A stretch of 64,000 nucleotides of DNA from Nitrospirota bacterium (GCA_021789935.1 JAJYIR010000002.1:62001-126000); one strand, 5' to 3'. Shown: positions 1-7,581, counted from the first letter of the stretch. Made by a program: numbers and translations. Notes: generated from the sequence alone by a model not told the origin.

Positions 1-374
1 AGATGGTAAAGCGACATGACGGACACGCGGGACTCGGGATCGGTAAAGCCAAATACGTGATTGACGCCGGGATGGGAAAGCCCCGTGTCCACTACGCCAA
101 GGACCCTATCAAAGGCCCTGCGCAGAGGCGCCAGTTGCCTGATAAGATCGGATGCCGGCACCTGCCCGCCCGGGCCGGAAAAACCGGCCCAGCCCTCACC
201 CTCTTCACCCTTGACCAGCAGCGCCTCCTCGCCAAACGCGCTTTGAACGGCAATCTTCATAATGTCGAGGACCCCCATGCTTATCCCCGCAGCCGGGACA
301 AGGGCGATGCCGCATTTTTCTTTGGGGATATCTTTCATTCCAGGGAAGGTCTCTTCCAAAACTGTCTGCCTCAA
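1..374 (-). CDS. Archaemetzincin-like (peptidase M54) protein, N-terminal part
   Basis: The reading frame runs off the left edge, so only about 124 N-terminal residues are visible. The segment VLGVVDTGLSHPGVNHVFGF (about residues 91-110), followed by SRVSVMSLYHL, matches the conserved archaemetzincin block 'vLGVtDvDLyvPglNFVFG...viSl.rL' that precedes the zinc motif HExxHxxGxxHC. The zinc site lies outside the window, so catalysis cannot be judged. The start is taken as TTG at 374 because GGAGGGGG lies 5-6 bases upstream; ATG at 338 in the same frame is an alternative. It sits downstream of a strong -24/-12 promoter and next to an NtrC-type regulator gene, so it is probably a regulated target. 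Confidence 0.6.
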   Translation of the reverse strand, partial: MRQTVLEETFPGMKDIPKEKCGIALVPAAGISMGVLDIMKIAVQSAFGEEALLVKGEEGEGWAGFSGPGGQVPASDLIRQLAPLRRAFDRVLGVVDTGLSHPGVNHVFGFTDPESRVSVMSLYH

Positions 375-433
375 ATTTCCCCCTCCAGCCATCCTTTGAG
401 ATTTTTTGCGGATCGGGCTTTTCATTGGATAAA

Positions 434-448
434 GCAAGAGAAGTGCCA
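434..448 (-). promoter_or_regulatory. Sigma-54 (-24/-12) promoter
   Basis: On the minus strand the bases read TGGCACTTCTCTTGC, with GG (447-446) exactly ten bases from GC (435-434). This is almost the consensus TGGCAC-N5-TTGC. The predicted transcript starts near 422, giving a leader of about 48 bases to the TTG start at 374. The 511-551 palindrome is centred about 109 bases upstream of the predicted start, the usual distance for an enhancer-binding protein. Confidence 0.75.
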
Positions 449-510: not shown

Positions 511-551
511 ATACATTTCAAAATGAAAAGATTTTTCATTTTGAAATGTAT
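511..551. promoter_or_regulatory. 41-bp nested palindrome, probable activator binding site
   Basis: Two perfect 19-bp arms (511-529 and 533-551) flank the 3-base centre GAT. Each arm itself contains a smaller palindrome: TTTCA-AAA-TGAAA in the left arm and TTTCA-TTT-TGAAA in the right arm. Two dyad sites side by side fit a pair of NtrC-family dimers upstream of the 434-448 promoter. It also lies 53 bases beyond the stop of the regulator gene, so a terminator role is possible, but the stem is AT-rich and lacks a GC-rich terminator stem. Confidence 0.6.
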
Positions 552-603: not shown

Positions 604-1947
604 TTATTCGAGGTTCAGCTTTTTAAGTTTTCTCCACAGGGTCGTAATGCTTATGCCCAGCGCCTGGGCCGCCTTTGCCTTCTGACCGTCGTATGCGCTC
701 AGGGCTTTCTGGATGAGGACTTTTTCCGAATCTTCGAGTTTAAAAACGCCCGTGCGCGCGAAAGGAACGGACTCGTGGTTCCTTTTAAGTATTTCCTTTT
801 GAAGGGACCTTGCGGTTATCTCGCTGCTCCCTTCGATAACTACCGCGTGCTCTATGCAGTTTTCAAGTTCCCTGACGTTTCCCGGCCACTGATACTCTGC
901 AAGCGCCGCTATGGCTTCCGGGGAGATGGAATTTATTTCTTTAGAGAACCTGCTGCGGTACTTTGCAAGGAAATGGCGGGCCAGATACGGGATGTCGTCC
1001 CTCCGTTCCCTCAGCGGCGGGATCGCAAGCGAAATAATGTTAAGCCGGTAAAAAAGGTCTTTTCTGAATCTGCCTTCCTCCACGTCTTTGGCAAGGTTCG
1101 TGTTGCAGGCGGTTATCACGCGCACATTTACGGATACAGGTTCAGTGCCCCCCACTTTCATAAAACTGCCTTCCTGCAATACCCTGAGCAATTTGATCTG
1201 GAGGGAGGGGGACGCGTTGTTCAGCTCGTCGAGAAATATTGTGCCCCGGTCCGCCGCTTCGAAAAGCCCTTTTTTTCTGGCGGACGCACCGGTGAAAGAG
1301 CCCTTTTCATATCCGAAAAGCTCCGCCTCTATGAGCGTTTCCGGCAAAGCCCCGCAATTGACGGGCAGGAATTTTTCTTTGGCCCTCGGGCTGAGCCTGT
1401 GAATGAGCCTGGCGATCATCTCCTTGCCGGTTCCGGTCTCCCCCTGTATGAGCACCGTAGTGTCCAGCGGGGCCACCTTTCCGACCATTTTTTTAAGCTC
1501 CGATACCGCCCGGCTTGAGCCAACGAACTCGTAATCAGCGTCACTTTCCAGCCCTGCGGAAAGCCTCAAGTTTTCGTCGACAAGCCTGCGGTACTCCGCC
1601 GCCCTCTTTACCGTGAACAGAAGGACGTCGGGCTCGAAGGGTTTTTGTATGTAGTCATAGGCGCCCTCCTTCATCGCCCCAACGGCGGAATCAACCGTGG
1701 CAAAACCCGTTATCATCACAACGGGGGTGAAGGGGCTTAGCTCCTTCGCACAGGCAAGGACTTCCATGCCGTCCGAGTCCGGCATCCTGAGGTCCGTCAG
1801 GATGACGTCGAAATCCTGCTCCCTTATACGGGGTATGGCCTCCATGCCGTTTTGGCTCTCGGTAACGCTGTAACCCTGCTTCTCAAGAAGTTCCCTGATG
1901 AGGCCCCTCATCCTGAAATCGTCTTCGACTACAAGGACCCTGAACAA
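604..1947 (-). CDS. NtrC-family sigma-54-dependent response regulator
   Basis: At 447 residues this has the standard three-part layout. The receiver domain (1-120) carries EDD at 8-10 and phospho-acceptor Asp52 in LTDLRMP. The AAA+ domain (about 145-380) has Walker A GETGTGKE and the sigma-54 contact loop as GSFTGA, a conservative variant of GAFTGA. The C-terminal Fis-type helix-turn-helix ends ALGISITTLWRKLKKLNLE. Its start overlaps the end of the kinase gene by 19 bases, so the two are translationally coupled and form a cognate pair. The adjacent palindrome and -24/-12 promoter at 434-551 are plausible targets, as is the -24/-12 promoter of the DsrE-like operon near 4770; this is inference from position. 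Confidence 0.93.
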   Translation of the reverse strand: MFRVLVVEDDFRMRGLIRELLEKQGYSVTESQNGMEAIPRIREQDFDVILTDLRMPDSDGMEVLACAKELSPFTPVVMITGFATVDSAVGAMKEGAYDYIQKPFEPDVLLFTVKRAAEYRRLVDENLRLSAGLESDADYEFVGSSRAVSELKKMVGKVAPLDTTVLIQGETGTGKEMIARLIHRLSPRAKEKFLPVNCGALPETLIEAELFGYEKGSFTGASARKKGLFEAADRGTIFLDELNNASPSLQIKLLRVLQEGSFMKVGGTEPVSVNVRVITACNTNLAKDVEEGRFRKDLFYRLNIISLAIPPLRERRDDIPYLARHFLAKYRSRFSKEINSISPEAIAALAEYQWPGNVRELENCIEHAVVIEGSSEITARSLQKEILKRNHESVPFARTGVFKLEDSEKVLIQKALSAYDGQKAKAAQALGISITTLWRKLKKLNLE

Positions 1948-3260
1948 ATATCCTCCTTTCCGTTCCGGCCTTTCACGCCTGCCGGCGCCGGGAGACAGAC
2001 GGTGAATTCCGTCCCTTCCCCGGGCTCGCTGGTTGCGTGGATAGAGCCCTTATGTTCCCTGACGACCCCCGAGCAGATGGACAACCCGAGTCCAGCCCCT
2101 TTTCCTACCGGCTTTGTGGTAAAGAACGGGTCGAATATGTTGGGAAGTATGTCTTCAGGTATTCCCGGCCCGTTGTCTGCTATCTTTACCTGGATGAGGT
2201 CCCCTTCGCGGGCCGCTCTTACGCTGATGGCCTTGCCCTTCCTGTCCATCCCCTCAAACGCCTGTATCGAATTCAGGATCAGGTTCAGGAAAACGAGCTC
2301 TATCTTCCGCGGGTCGGCCCGCACTGTCAGCCCTTCGGCAAGCGCTGTGTCCAATTTTATGCCCTGGCAGGCAAGCCTGTTTTGAAGGGTGCGAACGGTC
2401 TTCCTGATGATATCGTTTATGAGGATGTTCTGGAATGCGGGGACCGACTGGCGTGAAAAATCCAGGAGGCCCCTTATGATCTCACTGCCTTTTTTTGCCT
2501 GCTCCACTATTATCTCGAGTTTTTCTCTTTGCCCCGCCCCCAGGGCGGATTCCCCGTCTTTAAGAAGCAGTGTCGCGTAACCCAAAATATTGCCAAGAGG
2601 ATTGTTAAGCTCATGGGCTATCCCTCCGGCGAGCAGCCCTATGGCGGTAAGTTTTTCAGCCTGGCGCATAAGCTCCTCGACCTTCTTTTTTTCGGTAACA
2701 TCCATCGAGACCTCGATGGCGCCGGTGACCTGGCCCTCCGCGTCCTTCATCGGGGACGTGACTATCTGAAAATGCCTGTTCTTTTTTTTCACCTCGCGGA
2801 TAAAAACGGGCCTGCCGGTTGCCAGGGTCTCAACGGCCGGACAGTCAAGGCTCGGGGAATCCTTGCCGCAGTATATCTCGTAACAGTGCTTGCCGATCAC
2901 CTCCGTATTTACGGAGACCAGCAGTTCCTTCTGTTTTTCATTGCAATTAACTATCCTCATGTCCTCGTCTATTATCGATATGCAGACCCCCACAGTGTCG
3001 AAGACGGCCTGGAGCTGGTCTTTGGCGACTGTAAGCCGCCTGTTAGTTTCTTTCTGGTGTTCGAGTATCTGCTCAAAGGAAAGCGCTATTATCCCTATCG
3101 GGTCCAGTTCCAGGAGGGTGTTGTCGTCCAGTTCCTCCCTGCCCAGGGGCTTCGTGCCCATCACGGACAGCAGGTGGTTCACTTTGTCACGAATATATCT
3201 TTTAAGCTTTTCGTTGCCAAGCCTGGGGTCCGTCTTCCCAATCTTTTCGAGGCCGCTCAT
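1929..3260 (-). CDS. Cytoplasmic PAS sensor histidine kinase
   Basis: 443 residues with no membrane segment. The first 80 residues are unassigned. A PAS domain (about 82-190) contains a cysteine cluster Cys126, Cys131, Cys140, which might hold a metal or respond to redox or sulfur species. HisKA (about 200-265) has the phospho-acceptor His216 in GGIAHELNNPLG, and the HATPase_c domain follows with DNGPGIP and GAGLGLSIC. It overlaps the TusA-like gene by four bases (ATGA) upstream and the response regulator by 19 bases downstream, so all belong to one operon. A cytosolic kinase encoded with a sulfur carrier and a sulfur transporter suggests sensing of intracellular sulfur status, an inference from context. 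Confidence 0.9.
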   Translation of the reverse strand: MSGLEKIGKTDPRLGNEKLKRYIRDKVNHLLSVMGTKPLGREELDDNTLLELDPIGIIALSFEQILEHQKETNRRLTVAKDQLQAVFDTVGVCISIIDEDMRIVNCNEKQKELLVSVNTEVIGKHCYEIYCGKDSPSLDCPAVETLATGRPVFIREVKKKNRHFQIVTSPMKDAEGQVTGAIEVSMDVTEKKKVEELMRQAEKLTAIGLLAGGIAHELNNPLGNILGYATLLLKDGESALGAGQREKLEIIVEQAKKGSEIIRGLLDFSRQSVPAFQNILINDIIRKTVRTLQNRLACQGIKLDTALAEGLTVRADPRKIELVFLNLILNSIQAFEGMDRKGKAISVRAAREGDLIQVKIADNGPGIPEDILPNIFDPFFTTKPVGKGAGLGLSICSGVVREHKGSIHATSEPGEGTEFTVCLPAPAGVKGRNGKEDICSGSL

Positions 3261-4574: not shown

Positions 4575-4769
4575 TACGGAGCCAAGCGCCAGACCGGCCG
4601 CAAACTGGGAAAAACCAATAAAGAATAGACGAAGCGCGCCCGTACTTTTTAACCCGGTTCTTTTCTCTTTTTTAAAAGCGTTTGTTTTCCAGGACTGCTT
4701 TTTTTAATATAATTACCGCCTTCCCTTAAAGTCAAATCACTTTTATGCCAAACCCCTCCTGACAGAGCA

Positions 4770-4785
4770 TGGCATGCGATTTGCA
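4770..4785 (+). promoter_or_regulatory. Sigma-54 (-24/-12) promoter of the DsrE-like/cytochrome operon
   Basis: TGGCATGCGATTTGCA has GG at 4771-4772 and GC at 4783-4784 separated by exactly ten bases. The predicted transcript start is near 4796, 36 bases ahead of the first ATG at 4832. An imperfect inverted repeat AAAGT...ACTTT lies just upstream (about 4729-4745) but resembles neither of the other candidate activator sites in the window. Confidence 0.75.
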
Positions 4786-4831
4786 GTAAAAATACACAGA
4801 GGCAGTAAAAACTAAAAACAAGGGGGATAAC

Positions 4832-5107
4832 ATGCCCAAACAAATTGCGATGCTTGTGAGGGACAGGCAGGAAGAGGCTCTCAGGATGGCGCTTGGGATG
4901 ACGCTTCTTGAAGATACCATAGATGTTTACATCCTCGATGGGCCGGTGGAACGCTCGGAGGACAATATTATGAACATCGAGACGATGAAGGAGATGGGCA
5001 TGAACCTGTACACCAACTTCTTCGACGGAAGCCCCGGCCTTGCATATGTTTCGACTGAGGCAATGGCAAAGAGGCTTCCCGTTTACGATCTGGTGCTGCC
5101 TTACTAA
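4832..5107 (+). CDS. DsrE-like small protein without cysteine
   Basis: 91 residues, IAMLVRDRQEEALRMALGMT at the front and a DsrE-type alternating strand/helix pattern, ending VYDLVLPY. The DsrE/TusD family normally uses a cysteine as a sulfur acceptor; this protein has none, so it may be structural or regulatory in a complex with the neighbouring DsrE-like protein. AAGGGGGATAAC provides the ribosome binding site. It is the first gene after a -24/-12 promoter, and the next gene follows after 17 bases. Confidence 0.65.
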   Translation: MPKQIAMLVRDRQEEALRMALGMTLLEDTIDVYILDGPVERSEDNIMNIETMKEMGMNLYTNFFDGSPGLAYVSTEAMAKRLPVYDLVLPY

Positions 5108-5124
5108 AAAAGGGGGGGAAGAAG

Positions 5125-5301
5125 ATGAAAATCCTTTATATCTTGCACAGCGAAAAACAAAAACCCGGCAGAACATTAAATGTCCTGATCGATCAGCAGG
5201 CGATTGATAACGATGTCTCCGTTTTCGACCTGAGGGAAAACAAGGATTATACGGGGCTCCTGGACATGATTGAAAAAACCGATAAGGTAATTTCCTGGTA
5301 G
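5125..5301 (+). CDS. Very small DsrH/TusB-like protein
   Basis: 58 residues, MKILYILHSEKQ at the start and KTDKVISW at the stop. A strong ribosome binding site (AGGGGGGAAG) sits right before the ATG, and the gene is tightly packed between two DsrE-like genes, which supports translation. TusB/DsrH proteins are short, start with a hydrophobic strand and end in a tryptophan-containing strand, which this resembles, but it is shorter than typical (about 95 residues) and has no cysteine. The family call is tentative. Confidence 0.55.
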   Translation: MKILYILHSEKQKPGRTLNVLIDQQAIDNDVSVFDLRENKDYTGLLDMIEKTDKVISW

Positions 5302-5329
5302 TATAAAATAGTATGAGGCGGAGGGAAAA

Positions 5330-5632
5330 ATGAAAATAGGCATGCTCGTCAACACGGACAAATGCCTGAAGGATGTAATCGGCATCACGAAGGAGGCGCT
5401 TTCCAGGGGGCATGAAATAAGTATATTTACAATGGATTCCGGCACCAGGCTCCTTGAGAACGTGGAGTATTCGGGTCTCTGCAGGCTTGAGGGCGTCAGT
5501 ATGGCGTTTTGCTCTCACAGCGCGGGAAAGGAATGCATTGACACAAGTTTGGTCCCGCGGCACATAACCTGCGGGAGCCAGTTTGATAATGCCATCATGA
5601 GCAATGAATCGGACGTTGTGATTGTGCTTTAA
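5330..5632 (+). CDS. DsrE-family protein with five cysteines
   Basis: 100 residues, MKIGMLVNTDKCLKDVIGIT at the N-terminus, a DsrE/DsrF-like Rossmann-type pattern, and cysteines at 12, 51, 61, 69 and 81. The stretch AFCSHSAGKECIDTSL is the likely functional loop. Family members accept or transfer persulfide sulfur in the cytoplasm. GGCGGAGGGAAAA precedes the ATG. It is the cysteine-bearing partner of the cysteine-free protein two genes upstream and directly precedes the multiheme cytochrome, so sulfur transfer may be linked to electron transfer; this link is inference. Confidence 0.7.
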   Translation: MKIGMLVNTDKCLKDVIGITKEALSRGHEISIFTMDSGTRLLENVEYSGLCRLEGVSMAFCSHSAGKECIDTSLVPRHITCGSQFDNAIMSNESDVVIVL

Positions 5633-5643
5633 AAAAAGACCCG

Positions 5644-7581
5644 GTGAAGATTTTTTTCTTTAAAAAACCAGGCGGACTGAAAAGGATTTTTTCAAAGGAG
5701 TTTCTCCTCGCCCTCATTGTCGCCCAATTTTTCATCGTGCTCTCCCTCTCTGGCTACAAGGCCTGGCTGAACACAAGCGCCAGCTGCATCAGCTGTCACT
5801 CCAACCGGGGAAAACTTGCAAAACTGGGCTACCCCGAATTTTATATCACTCCGGAGATGGTGGCCAGGCAAAGCCATCATGCAAACGCGACCTGCCGCGA
5901 CTGCCATCTGGGAAACGGAAGGGCTAAGGACATGAAAGATGCCCACAAGGGCATGCTTAAAGCCCTATTCATAGGCTACGATGGAAAAGTCCTGAACAGA
6001 AGGGACATACTTCCCGGCGCCCTTGTGCCAACAGGCCCGTTTGGCATCAGGGATCTCCTGCCGAAGGTGAAATCCCCTGACGGACAGCTCTATGTAAACC
6101 CCGAGGTCAGAAACCTGCTCTGGCAGGACAGGAACCCCGGCACGCTGGACTTTGACCCGGCGATCGTTAAAAAGACATGCGGACAGCCCTCCTGCCACCC
6201 GGAGGAGCTAAGGCAGTTCAAAAGTTCGGACATGGGGGCTGACTACAGGCAGCGCACCATGAAGACATGGCTTTATCCCTACGGCCCTCACAACTGCGGC
6301 CCGTCCTTCGCGGATGTCCCGCCGCAAAAGAAGCTGAAGAAAACGGGCTTCGACTACTCAAACACAAAAAAAATAGCCGCAGAGATGGATGTGCCCTTCA
6401 CCAGGCAACAGGCCAGGGCAAAACAGCGCTTCTGCAACGTCTGCCACCCGGGATGCCTGGACTGCCATTACTCCCCTAGCGCCACGGAAGGCGTGCATAA
6501 CTTTTATAAGAAGCCTCCCGCCGTGAGCTGCGCGGGCGACGGAAGGGGCACGAGCATATGCCACCCCGGCGCGATGCAAAGCAGACGGGGAGAGACATAC
6601 ATAGGCGGCGAATATTCCATACCGACCGGAGAGGCGCCTGACATCCACTACACCAAGGGCTTACAGTGCGTGGACTGCCACCAGATGGGCCCCAAAGGCA
6701 TGGGCGACATGATGCGCAAGGCCACCTGCCAGGACTGCCACATAGAGGCTGAAGATGCCCTGGCGAAAAGCGTGCATAAAAATCTTGATTGCGCGGCCTG
6801 CCATTTAAGTGAACTTCGGGGCTACCAGCTGACGATGTGGGGGCCCGGAGAGGTGGCTGGCAGGCCCAATCCCTTCGTCAAATATTCCCTTTACTACGGC
6901 ATTCAAAGCCCTCCCATCATAATGAAAAACCAGAACGGCCGATGGATGCCCGTGAAGGTATGGCCGCACAGCCTGGGGAATTTCAGAAAAGATGTGCCCC
7001 CATCCCCCCGTATAATGTTCCGCTGGCCGGACAAGCAGACGGAAGACGCATATTACATCGTGGGGACGGTGAGCGGACTGCCCGCGGACAATAAGCAGCT
7101 TCTCTGGCTGGAGATAGAACAGGCCTCGCACCCTTACGGCAAGGCCAGAAGCTGCGGCTCCTGCCACAGGCCGGGAGGGGTGCAGATCTCCACGTCCAAC
7201 TGGCAGTTCGAAGAAGACCAGGGCGCACTCCCTTTCAAGGGGACGCACAGAATCGTGGCGGACAAAAACGGCATCCGGATAGAGGACCTTAAAAACACGA
7301 CTCCCATCGTGCCTCTGCAGGGCGCAAAGCTTGCCGATTTCGCTGCATGGATATATATGAAAGACAAATGGAAGGCCCCTGGGGACTTTTCCATAAAGAA
7401 CGACCCCCCGGAATACCGGAAGATACTCGGGGCGTCCGTCCGGGTGGACAGGGAAATGCGCCGGATGAAGACGGCCTCAAAACATTTCGGCAAGGAAAAG
7501 CTGATAAGGTTCAGGAGGCTAAAGGAATCTGTTTTCCATGACCCGGGGGATGCCGCAAAGTTCATAAACCGGTTCAAGTAA
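5644..7581 (+). CDS. Membrane-anchored multiheme cytochrome c (eight canonical hemes plus atypical motifs)
   Basis: 645 residues. One N-terminal membrane helix (about 18-40) is followed by a large periplasmic region. Eight CXXCH motifs are visible: CISCH (48-52), CRDCH, CNVCH, CLDCH, CVDCH, CQDCH, CAACH and CGSCH. Two further candidates are CGQPSCH (CX4CH, an accepted variant) and a wide CX9CH, CAGDGRGTSICH. The NapC/NrfH-like anchor and heme number fit quinol-linked electron transfer, but I recognise no named family. The GTG start at 5644 has only a weak ribosome binding site. It lies 11 bases after the DsrE-like gene, so it is probably the last gene of that sigma-54-driven operon. Confidence 0.85.
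   Translation: MKIFFFKKPGGLKRIFSKEFLLALIVAQFFIVLSLSGYKAWLNTSASCISCHSNRGKLAKLGYPEFYITPEMVARQSHHANATCRDCHLGNGRAKDMKDAHKGMLKALFIGYDGKVLNRRDILPGALVPTGPFGIRDLLPKVKSPDGQLYVNPEVRNLLWQDRNPGTLDFDPAIVKKTCGQPSCHPEELRQFKSSDMGADYRQRTMKTWLYPYGPHNCGPSFADVPPQKKLKKTGFDYSNTKKIAAEMDVPFTRQQARAKQRFCNVCHPGCLDCHYSPSATEGVHNFYKKPPAVSCAGDGRGTSICHPGAMQSRRGETYIGGEYSIPTGEAPDIHYTKGLQCVDCHQMGPKGMGDMMRKATCQDCHIEAEDALAKSVHKNLDCAACHLSELRGYQLTMWGPGEVAGRPNPFVKYSLYYGIQSPPIIMKNQNGRWMPVKVWPHSLGNFRKDVPPSPRIMFRWPDKQTEDAYYIVGTVSGLPADNKQLLWLEIEQASHPYGKARSCGSCHRPGGVQISTSNWQFEEDQGALPFKGTHRIVADKNGIRIEDLKNTTPIVPLQGAKLADFAAWIYMKDKWKAPGDFSIKNDPPEYRKILGASVRVDREMRRMKTASKHFGKEKLIRFRRLKESVFHDPGDAAKFINRFK

Follow-up and report, generated by a model that had tools for sequence, protein, structure and literature searches.

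A predicted sulfane-sulfur sensing and relay locus with a DsrEFH-like trio and a multiheme cytochrome in a Nitrospirota bacterium

Gene organisation of the locus

We analysed a stretch of 64,000 nucleotides (hereafter the window) from a Nitrospirota bacterium (GCA_021789935.1 JAJYIR010000002.1:62001-126000; part of contig C13 of genome G000, 2.47 Mb), with a focus on a four-gene operon that encodes three small DsrE/F/H-like proteins and a multiheme cytochrome c, and on the YeeE-TusA unit transcribed away from it. An earlier note on this DNA, made from the sequence alone, had suggested an electron-coupled sulfur-handling system here. As judged from gene content and conserved sites, the locus probably encodes a system for sensing and relaying sulfane sulfur, organised in three transcription units and provided with an outlet for electrons.

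The operon consists of four open reading frames on the plus strand, from 4832 to 7581, with gaps of 17, 28 and 11 bp between neighbours. These encode P1, a DsrF-like protein by its structural model (91 residues, 4832..5107); P2, a putative DsrH-like subunit that ends in DKVISW (58 residues, 5125..5301); P3, a DsrE-type sulfurtransferase subunit (100 residues, 5330..5632); and a membrane-anchored multiheme cytochrome c (645 residues, 5644..7581). Ahead of them, TGGCATGCGATTTGCA at 4770-4785 on the plus strand is the sole exact match within the 64 kb to the sigma-54 (-24/-12) consensus TGGCAYRNNNNTTGCW, where 0.04 would be expected by chance. Relatives retain a sigma-54 site ahead of the same genes, exact at two loci (L067, L163) and with one mismatch at a third (L066), which bears out the earlier description of four tightly spaced genes behind such a site. 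The complete order of trio and cytochrome, which the earlier note had proposed to look for in other genomes, recurs in two congeneric genomes (L066, L067) and, up to the point where the contig ends, in a further member of the family (L163). A contig of 12,110 bases appears to be identical in two metagenome-assembled genomes assigned to different genera (G200 and G201; L163 and L164), one of which is probably misbinned because both contain it; we counted the two genomes once. The genomes in which the cytochrome was counted are related, and the cytochrome counts given below therefore overstate independence. At one locus that is missing the trio (L133), a perfect 30-bp palindrome, CCTGGATATAATTTGCAAATTATATCCAGG, lies between the cytochrome gene (9816) and yeeE (10179), at about the position of the sigma-54 site.

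The analysis confirmed the YeeE-TusA pair noted earlier on the opposite strand, a unit that continues into two regulatory genes. In order of transcription on the minus strand, the unit encodes a YeeE-family membrane protein (PF04143, 3531..4574), a TusA-like carrier with a CPAC motif (PF01206, 3257..3517), a PAS histidine kinase (1929..3260) and an NtrC-type sigma-54 response regulator (604..1947). Its predicted promoter is sigma-70-like, TTGACT-18-TATATT, at 4706..4735 on the minus strand. Beyond the regulator gene lie tandem copies of the dyad TTTCANNNTGAAA (516-528 and 534-546, together spanning 516..546), followed by a second sigma-54 site with one mismatch (433..448, minus strand) that reads leftwards into a third operon. 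The first gene of this operon encodes an M54 peptidase (1..392, minus strand, start codon uncertain) and the subsequent genes lie outside the window; in full (L126) the operon encodes the M54 peptidase, a 61-residue membrane protein, a 176-residue protein, a second YeeE and TusA (YeeE2 and TusA2), a rhodanese and a porin.

The small proteins are best read as a permuted DsrEFH of type II

Taken singly, P1, P2 and P3 match no fitting Pfam or NCBIfam family, and searches of Pfam, NCBIfam and the PDB with the individual proteins returned nothing useful. The top PDB profile matches, designed TIM barrels for P3 and dynein for P2, were discarded as chance. Because the single proteins match no fitting family, naming them as DsrE, DsrF and DsrH required alignments and structural models.

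P3 contains cysteines at positions 12, 51, 61, 69 and 81, and P1 contains none, as the earlier note had it for its two DsrE-like proteins. When 34 homologs of P3 were aligned, C61 was the only invariant cysteine, and 31 of the 34 matched the DsrE family PF02635. The AlphaFold model of P3 (predicted local distance difference test, pLDDT, 97) has as its best Foldseek match in the PDB the DsrE of A. vinosum (2hy5_A; E 1.2e-5; template modelling (TM) score 0.84; 16% sequence identity), and the next matches are other DsrE-family structures. On the model and the conservation together, P3 is a DsrE-type sulfurtransferase subunit with a DsrE fold, as had been proposed, and C61 is probably its active cysteine. 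P1, which usually adjoins P3 in the loci compared, was modelled with a pLDDT of 92 and aligns over its full length with 2pd2 at a TM score of 0.70; the Foldseek E value, 0.03, is not significant. The TM score suggests a DsrE/F-like fold, which supports the earlier naming of P1 as DsrE-like and would make it a DsrF-like subunit. P2 is a conserved partner in the 34 homologs, with an invariant C-terminal tryptophan, and gave no meaningful database match. Of the earlier assignment of P2 as TusB/DsrH-like, the support that stands is its constant place in the trio and its C-terminus, from which we consider it probably DsrH/TusB-like.

The trio is kept across Nitrospirota beside YeeE/TusA, in the orders P1-P2-P3, P3-P1-P2 and P3-P2. 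Because of this conservation, the trio's best reading is that of a DsrEFH type II, or "YTD", cluster whose gene order is permuted and which the standard families miss. Two studies (PMC13293266, PMC12998232) give DsrEFH type II as the new name of the YTD cluster, describe its members as escaping sequence-based annotation, and list Nitrospirota among its carriers. The window shares with that type three small syntenic proteins overlooked by standard families, encoded in one cluster with tusA and yeeE/yedE, and a DsrE that has the expected fold in its model and a single invariant cysteine; the genome also encodes DsrA and DsrB, both above cut-off, and DsrC. The idea of a rearranged DsrEFH agrees with this, whereas the statement that the system cannot be matched to a described one is not supported. 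The window departs from the type in its order, F-H-E instead of E-F-H (although F-H-E is also found in other families), in the separation of the trio from YeeE2/TusA2 into a sigma-54 operon of its own, in the additional multiheme cytochrome, and in its kinase-regulator switch, of which we found no mention in the available passages of PMC13293266 and PMC12998232. Compared with canonical DsrEFH/TusBCD (2hy5, 2d1p), P3 has the same fold, and in its model C61 follows the third strand, where we infer the DsrE active cysteine should lie, but each of the three subunits is shorter.

The genome contains two additional DsrE-F(-H)-like sets (L127 8719-9622 on C24, and L128 9142-9875 on C7), with DsrE proteins that are 31-39% identical. 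A scan of viral contigs and a plasmid search yielded no relatives outside Nitrospirota.

A kinase-regulator pair and its candidate DNA target

The yeeE-tusA-kinase-regulator unit recurs in many families, and a TTTGACTTT block at its promoter is conserved in five members of the window's family. The regulator has receiver, sigma-54 activation and HTH_8 domains and is encoded with a cognate kinase, the composition of an NtrC-type two-component system. No transmembrane segment is evident in the kinase sequence. Its PAS cysteines 126, 131 and 140 are conserved in every kinase compared. The TusA linked to YeeE has a CPAC motif in 16 of 20 cases and CPAT or CPST in the other four; CPAC carriers are paired with a close type of kinase and CPAT/CPST carriers with a distant one. 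A fourth kinase cysteine, C106, follows this division, in that almost every CPAC module has it and none of the four CPAT/CPST modules does. In YeeE, cysteines 7, 79 and 304 are invariant among 20 orthologs. Ahead of the annotated ATG, the reading frame still shows YeeE similarity (4575-4650, minus strand; ..TGALRLFFIGFSQFAAGLALGSVMYRSD), and no ATG, GTG or TTG start is seen in this extension; the start probably lies upstream of 4574, and the true start codon may be non-canonical.

In Hyphomicrobium denitrificans, the YeeE-like protein SoxT1B has a role in signal transduction, for which TusA is the likely carrier (PMC11582611). As with SoxT1A and SoxT1B, the present system has two YeeE-like proteins with three conserved cysteines, one near regulators (signalling) and one beside sulfur-transfer genes (import), and the three-cysteine YeeE of the window is encoded with its regulator. 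The regulators themselves differ: the SoxT1B system uses the transcriptional repressor SoxR, whereas in place of a persulfide-sensing repressor of this type the window has a PAS histidine kinase and an NtrC-type sigma-54 activator. The simplest reading is that TusA would pass its persulfide on to the kinase.

Of 15 modules, 13 have a sigma-54 site 80-165 bp beyond the regulator stop codon, with 0.009 expected per module, and in all 14 such promoters (14/14) a TTTCANNNTGAAA dyad precedes it, frequently in two copies spaced about 18 bp apart; shuffled sequences share a dyad in at most two promoters. Scanning 396 genomes for the dyad pair alone retrieved 13 genomes with one site each, while the reversed pattern gave no match in the same scan. 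Eight of the 13 were modules already known. At each of the five new sites, 5-10 bp separate the pair from the preceding stop codon of a regulator 48-55% identical to that of the window (two of these five contigs end within the regulator gene). The tandem dyads are probably binding sites of the response regulator, and at 433-546 they are combined with a predicted -24/-12 promoter in the arrangement expected for such an activator.

In the window the dyad promoter precedes the M54/YeeE2/TusA2/rhodanese operon, and in other families it precedes DsrEFH. The sensor unit lies upstream of dsrE-dsrF-dsrH-YeeE2-TusA2 in G040, G090, G067, G116, G118, G120 and G338, and since it precedes the relay genes in these other families we consider that sensor and relay belong together. 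Rhodanese and M54 peptidase genes accompany the dsrEFH operon in G090 (before dsrE) and G338. The M54 peptidase, which is archaemetzincin-like, is conserved inside the dyad-linked sulfur operon (L109 7990-8538, L126 13767-14540).

The multiheme cytochrome and a Rieske/cytochrome b complex

The fourth protein of the operon has a single N-terminal transmembrane segment, which would anchor it, and eight CX2CH heme motifs plus one CX4CH, in agreement with its earlier description as a membrane multiheme cytochrome. No solved structure matched it beyond a short stretch. Within the cytochrome family, C296 and C306-H (residues 296-307) are invariant and may form an unusual CX9CH heme motif; a lone cysteine, C218, is also invariant. 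Of 198 sampled genomes, 57 encode an ortholog, mostly alongside dsrA.

A genome found through its dyads (G338) carries the gene run DsrEFH-YeeE2-TusA2-UspA-like-cytochrome b C-terminal-Rieske-cytochrome b N-terminal-cytochrome. This run prompted a search of the phylum with its cytochrome b: 36 genomes had both proteins, none the cytochrome only, one cytochrome b only and 23 neither, such that the cytochrome is present where the complex is present with one exception in 60. G000 itself carries matching cytochrome b and Rieske genes on contig C14. In the genomes of family f6 the cytochrome gene stands beside a rhodanese gene, and in several it is near Rieske/cytochrome b and a PhsA-like enzyme. 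Given the co-occurrence and the gene neighbourhoods, the cytochrome most likely takes electrons from the Rieske/cytochrome b complex. The best-scoring matches of the partner cytochrome b are ExtP and cytochrome b6, and the cytochrome matches ExtN/ExtO weakly. The Cbc/Ext complexes of Geobacter are b6-type Rieske/cytochrome b complexes with multiheme cytochromes; the complex considered here resembles them in the ExtP/cytochrome b6 type of its cytochrome b but differs in that all matches fall below curated cut-offs. At four loci of family f6 (L207, L208, L209, L214), a PhsA-like molybdopterin enzyme gene and two partner genes lie beside those for Rieske/cytochrome b and the cytochrome.

Proposed mechanism and alternatives

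In the system that we propose, the sensor operon (yeeE, CPAC-type tusA, PAS kinase, NtrC-type regulator) would be transcribed from the sigma-70-like promoter. YeeE would pass a sulfane-sulfur signal inward, TusA would take it up in persulfide form, and the response would come from the cytoplasmic kinase with its conserved PAS cysteines. The regulator would bind the tandem dyads behind its own gene, as the conservation of these sites suggests, and activate the sigma-54 promoter of the import and relay operon (M54 peptidase, YeeE2, TusA2, rhodanese, porin). For dsrF-dsrH-dsrE and the cytochrome, transcription would depend on another conserved sigma-54 promoter. Cys61 of DsrE would accept sulfur from TusA and give it to DsrC, thereby feeding DsrAB, and the cytochrome, as the usual partner of Rieske/cytochrome b, would remove quinone-pool electrons arising from sulfur oxidation or disproportionation. 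The relay is of a known kind: according to PMC13293266, DsrEFH type II accepts sulfur from TusA and hands it to DsrC. By contrast, among the open-licence papers searched we found no description of the switch and its specific DNA target or of the coupling to a cytochrome. More tentatively, we suggest that a TusA with a CPAC dithiol may bring imported sulfane sulfur to the PAS kinase, which would make this a two-component sigma-54 switch for DsrEFH type II, the second importer and a dedicated cytochrome branch, committing a dsrAB-carrying Nitrospirota bacterium to sulfur oxidation.

Several observations weigh against this scheme. The trio promoter at 4770 lacks the TTTCANNNTGAAA dyad (best score -0.4, vs 21-26 for true sites), as do the corresponding promoters of L066, L067 and L163. 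The evidence for P2 as DsrH is weak, and that for P1 as DsrF is weak too, although less so. The distant kinases, whose TusA is of the CPAT/CPST kind, likewise have three of the PAS cysteines, which are therefore not specific to CPAC modules. There is no positive association of the cytochrome with DsrE: among dsrA-positive genomes, 27 have both, 27 the cytochrome only, 24 DsrE only and 9 neither. In G198, moreover, the cytochrome gene faces yeeE with neither a trio nor a recognisable sigma-54 site.

The missing dyad bears on who controls the trio. A different sigma-54 activator might drive the trio-cytochrome operon, with the adjacent kinase-regulator pair controlling the YeeE2 operon only and the two units being mere neighbours. 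At 4770 the promoter of an NtrC-type system is present and an activator site was not found, while the YeeE2-type promoter always has its dyad; we accordingly dropped the neighbouring regulator as the obvious controller. However, the sensor and trio operons lie side by side in divergent orientation in every family member that has the linked trio, and dsrEFH genes follow a dyad-carrying promoter in other families. We consider a separate activator quite possible without favouring it.

A second alternative concerns the direction of sulfur metabolism, in that the trio could serve sulfur reduction, or the oxidative half of the disproportionation of sulfur or thiosulfate, in place of oxidation coupled to an external acceptor. 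PMC9751629 and PMC12998232 discuss the YTD cluster as a marker of disproportionation and report its higher abundance in Desulfolithobacter while thiosulfate is being disproportionated; in G000 a weak DsrD-like gene, scoring below cut-off, follows dsrAB. Against this, DsrEFH type II is also found in non-disproportionators, with sulfur flowing towards DsrC (PMC13293266), and the neighbouring cytochrome suggests an electron outlet. We regard disproportionation or reduction as a serious minority possibility; oxidation and the oxidative half of disproportionation are not distinguishable here.

The cytochrome, in turn, may have joined the operon by neutral rearrangement and serve Rieske/cytochrome b in general respiration, unrelated to sulfur transfer. 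Most of its orthologs have no conserved neighbours, its gene tree largely follows taxonomy, it co-occurs tightly with cytochrome b and not with DsrE, and sigma-54 sites upstream of unlinked orthologs form no consistent pattern. In genomes outside the GTDB family, trio and cytochrome lie on separate loci in all cases examined except G338, so that the refuting condition of the earlier note, a scattering of the four genes in homologous genomes, was borne out in part, and the absence of a positive association led us to drop the cytochrome as a general DsrEFH partner. Yet the cytochrome gene is repeatedly placed beside sulfur-transfer genes: in family f1, in G338 (DsrEFH type II with Rieske/cytochrome b), in G057 (canonical DsrEFH and YeeE) and in f6 (rhodanese). 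These three to four cases are not statistically strong; we judge a purely neutral origin to be rather unlikely. Finally, it is improbable that YeeE and TusA of the sensor operon import thiosulfate or selenium for assimilation while the kinase senses something unrelated, since, although their best named matches are TsuA/TsuB and YedE/YedF (all far below curated cut-offs), they are strictly linked to the kinase, the regulator and relay operons in many families, and a second YeeE/TusA pair in the genome could serve bulk import.

Significance

The proposed sensing and relay system addresses the question of how sulfate-reducing or disproportionating microbes set the Dsr pathway towards oxidation. 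The kinase-regulator pair, being genetically tied to YeeE-TusA, is a named candidate for the sensor; the near-unique DNA target before DsrEFH type II operons is a named candidate for its binding site and gives a predicted regulon; and the multiheme cytochrome associated with Rieske/cytochrome b is a candidate exit for the electrons. From its gene content, the likely role of the locus is to sense sulfane sulfur and, in response, to switch on a sulfur relay together with an outlet for electrons.

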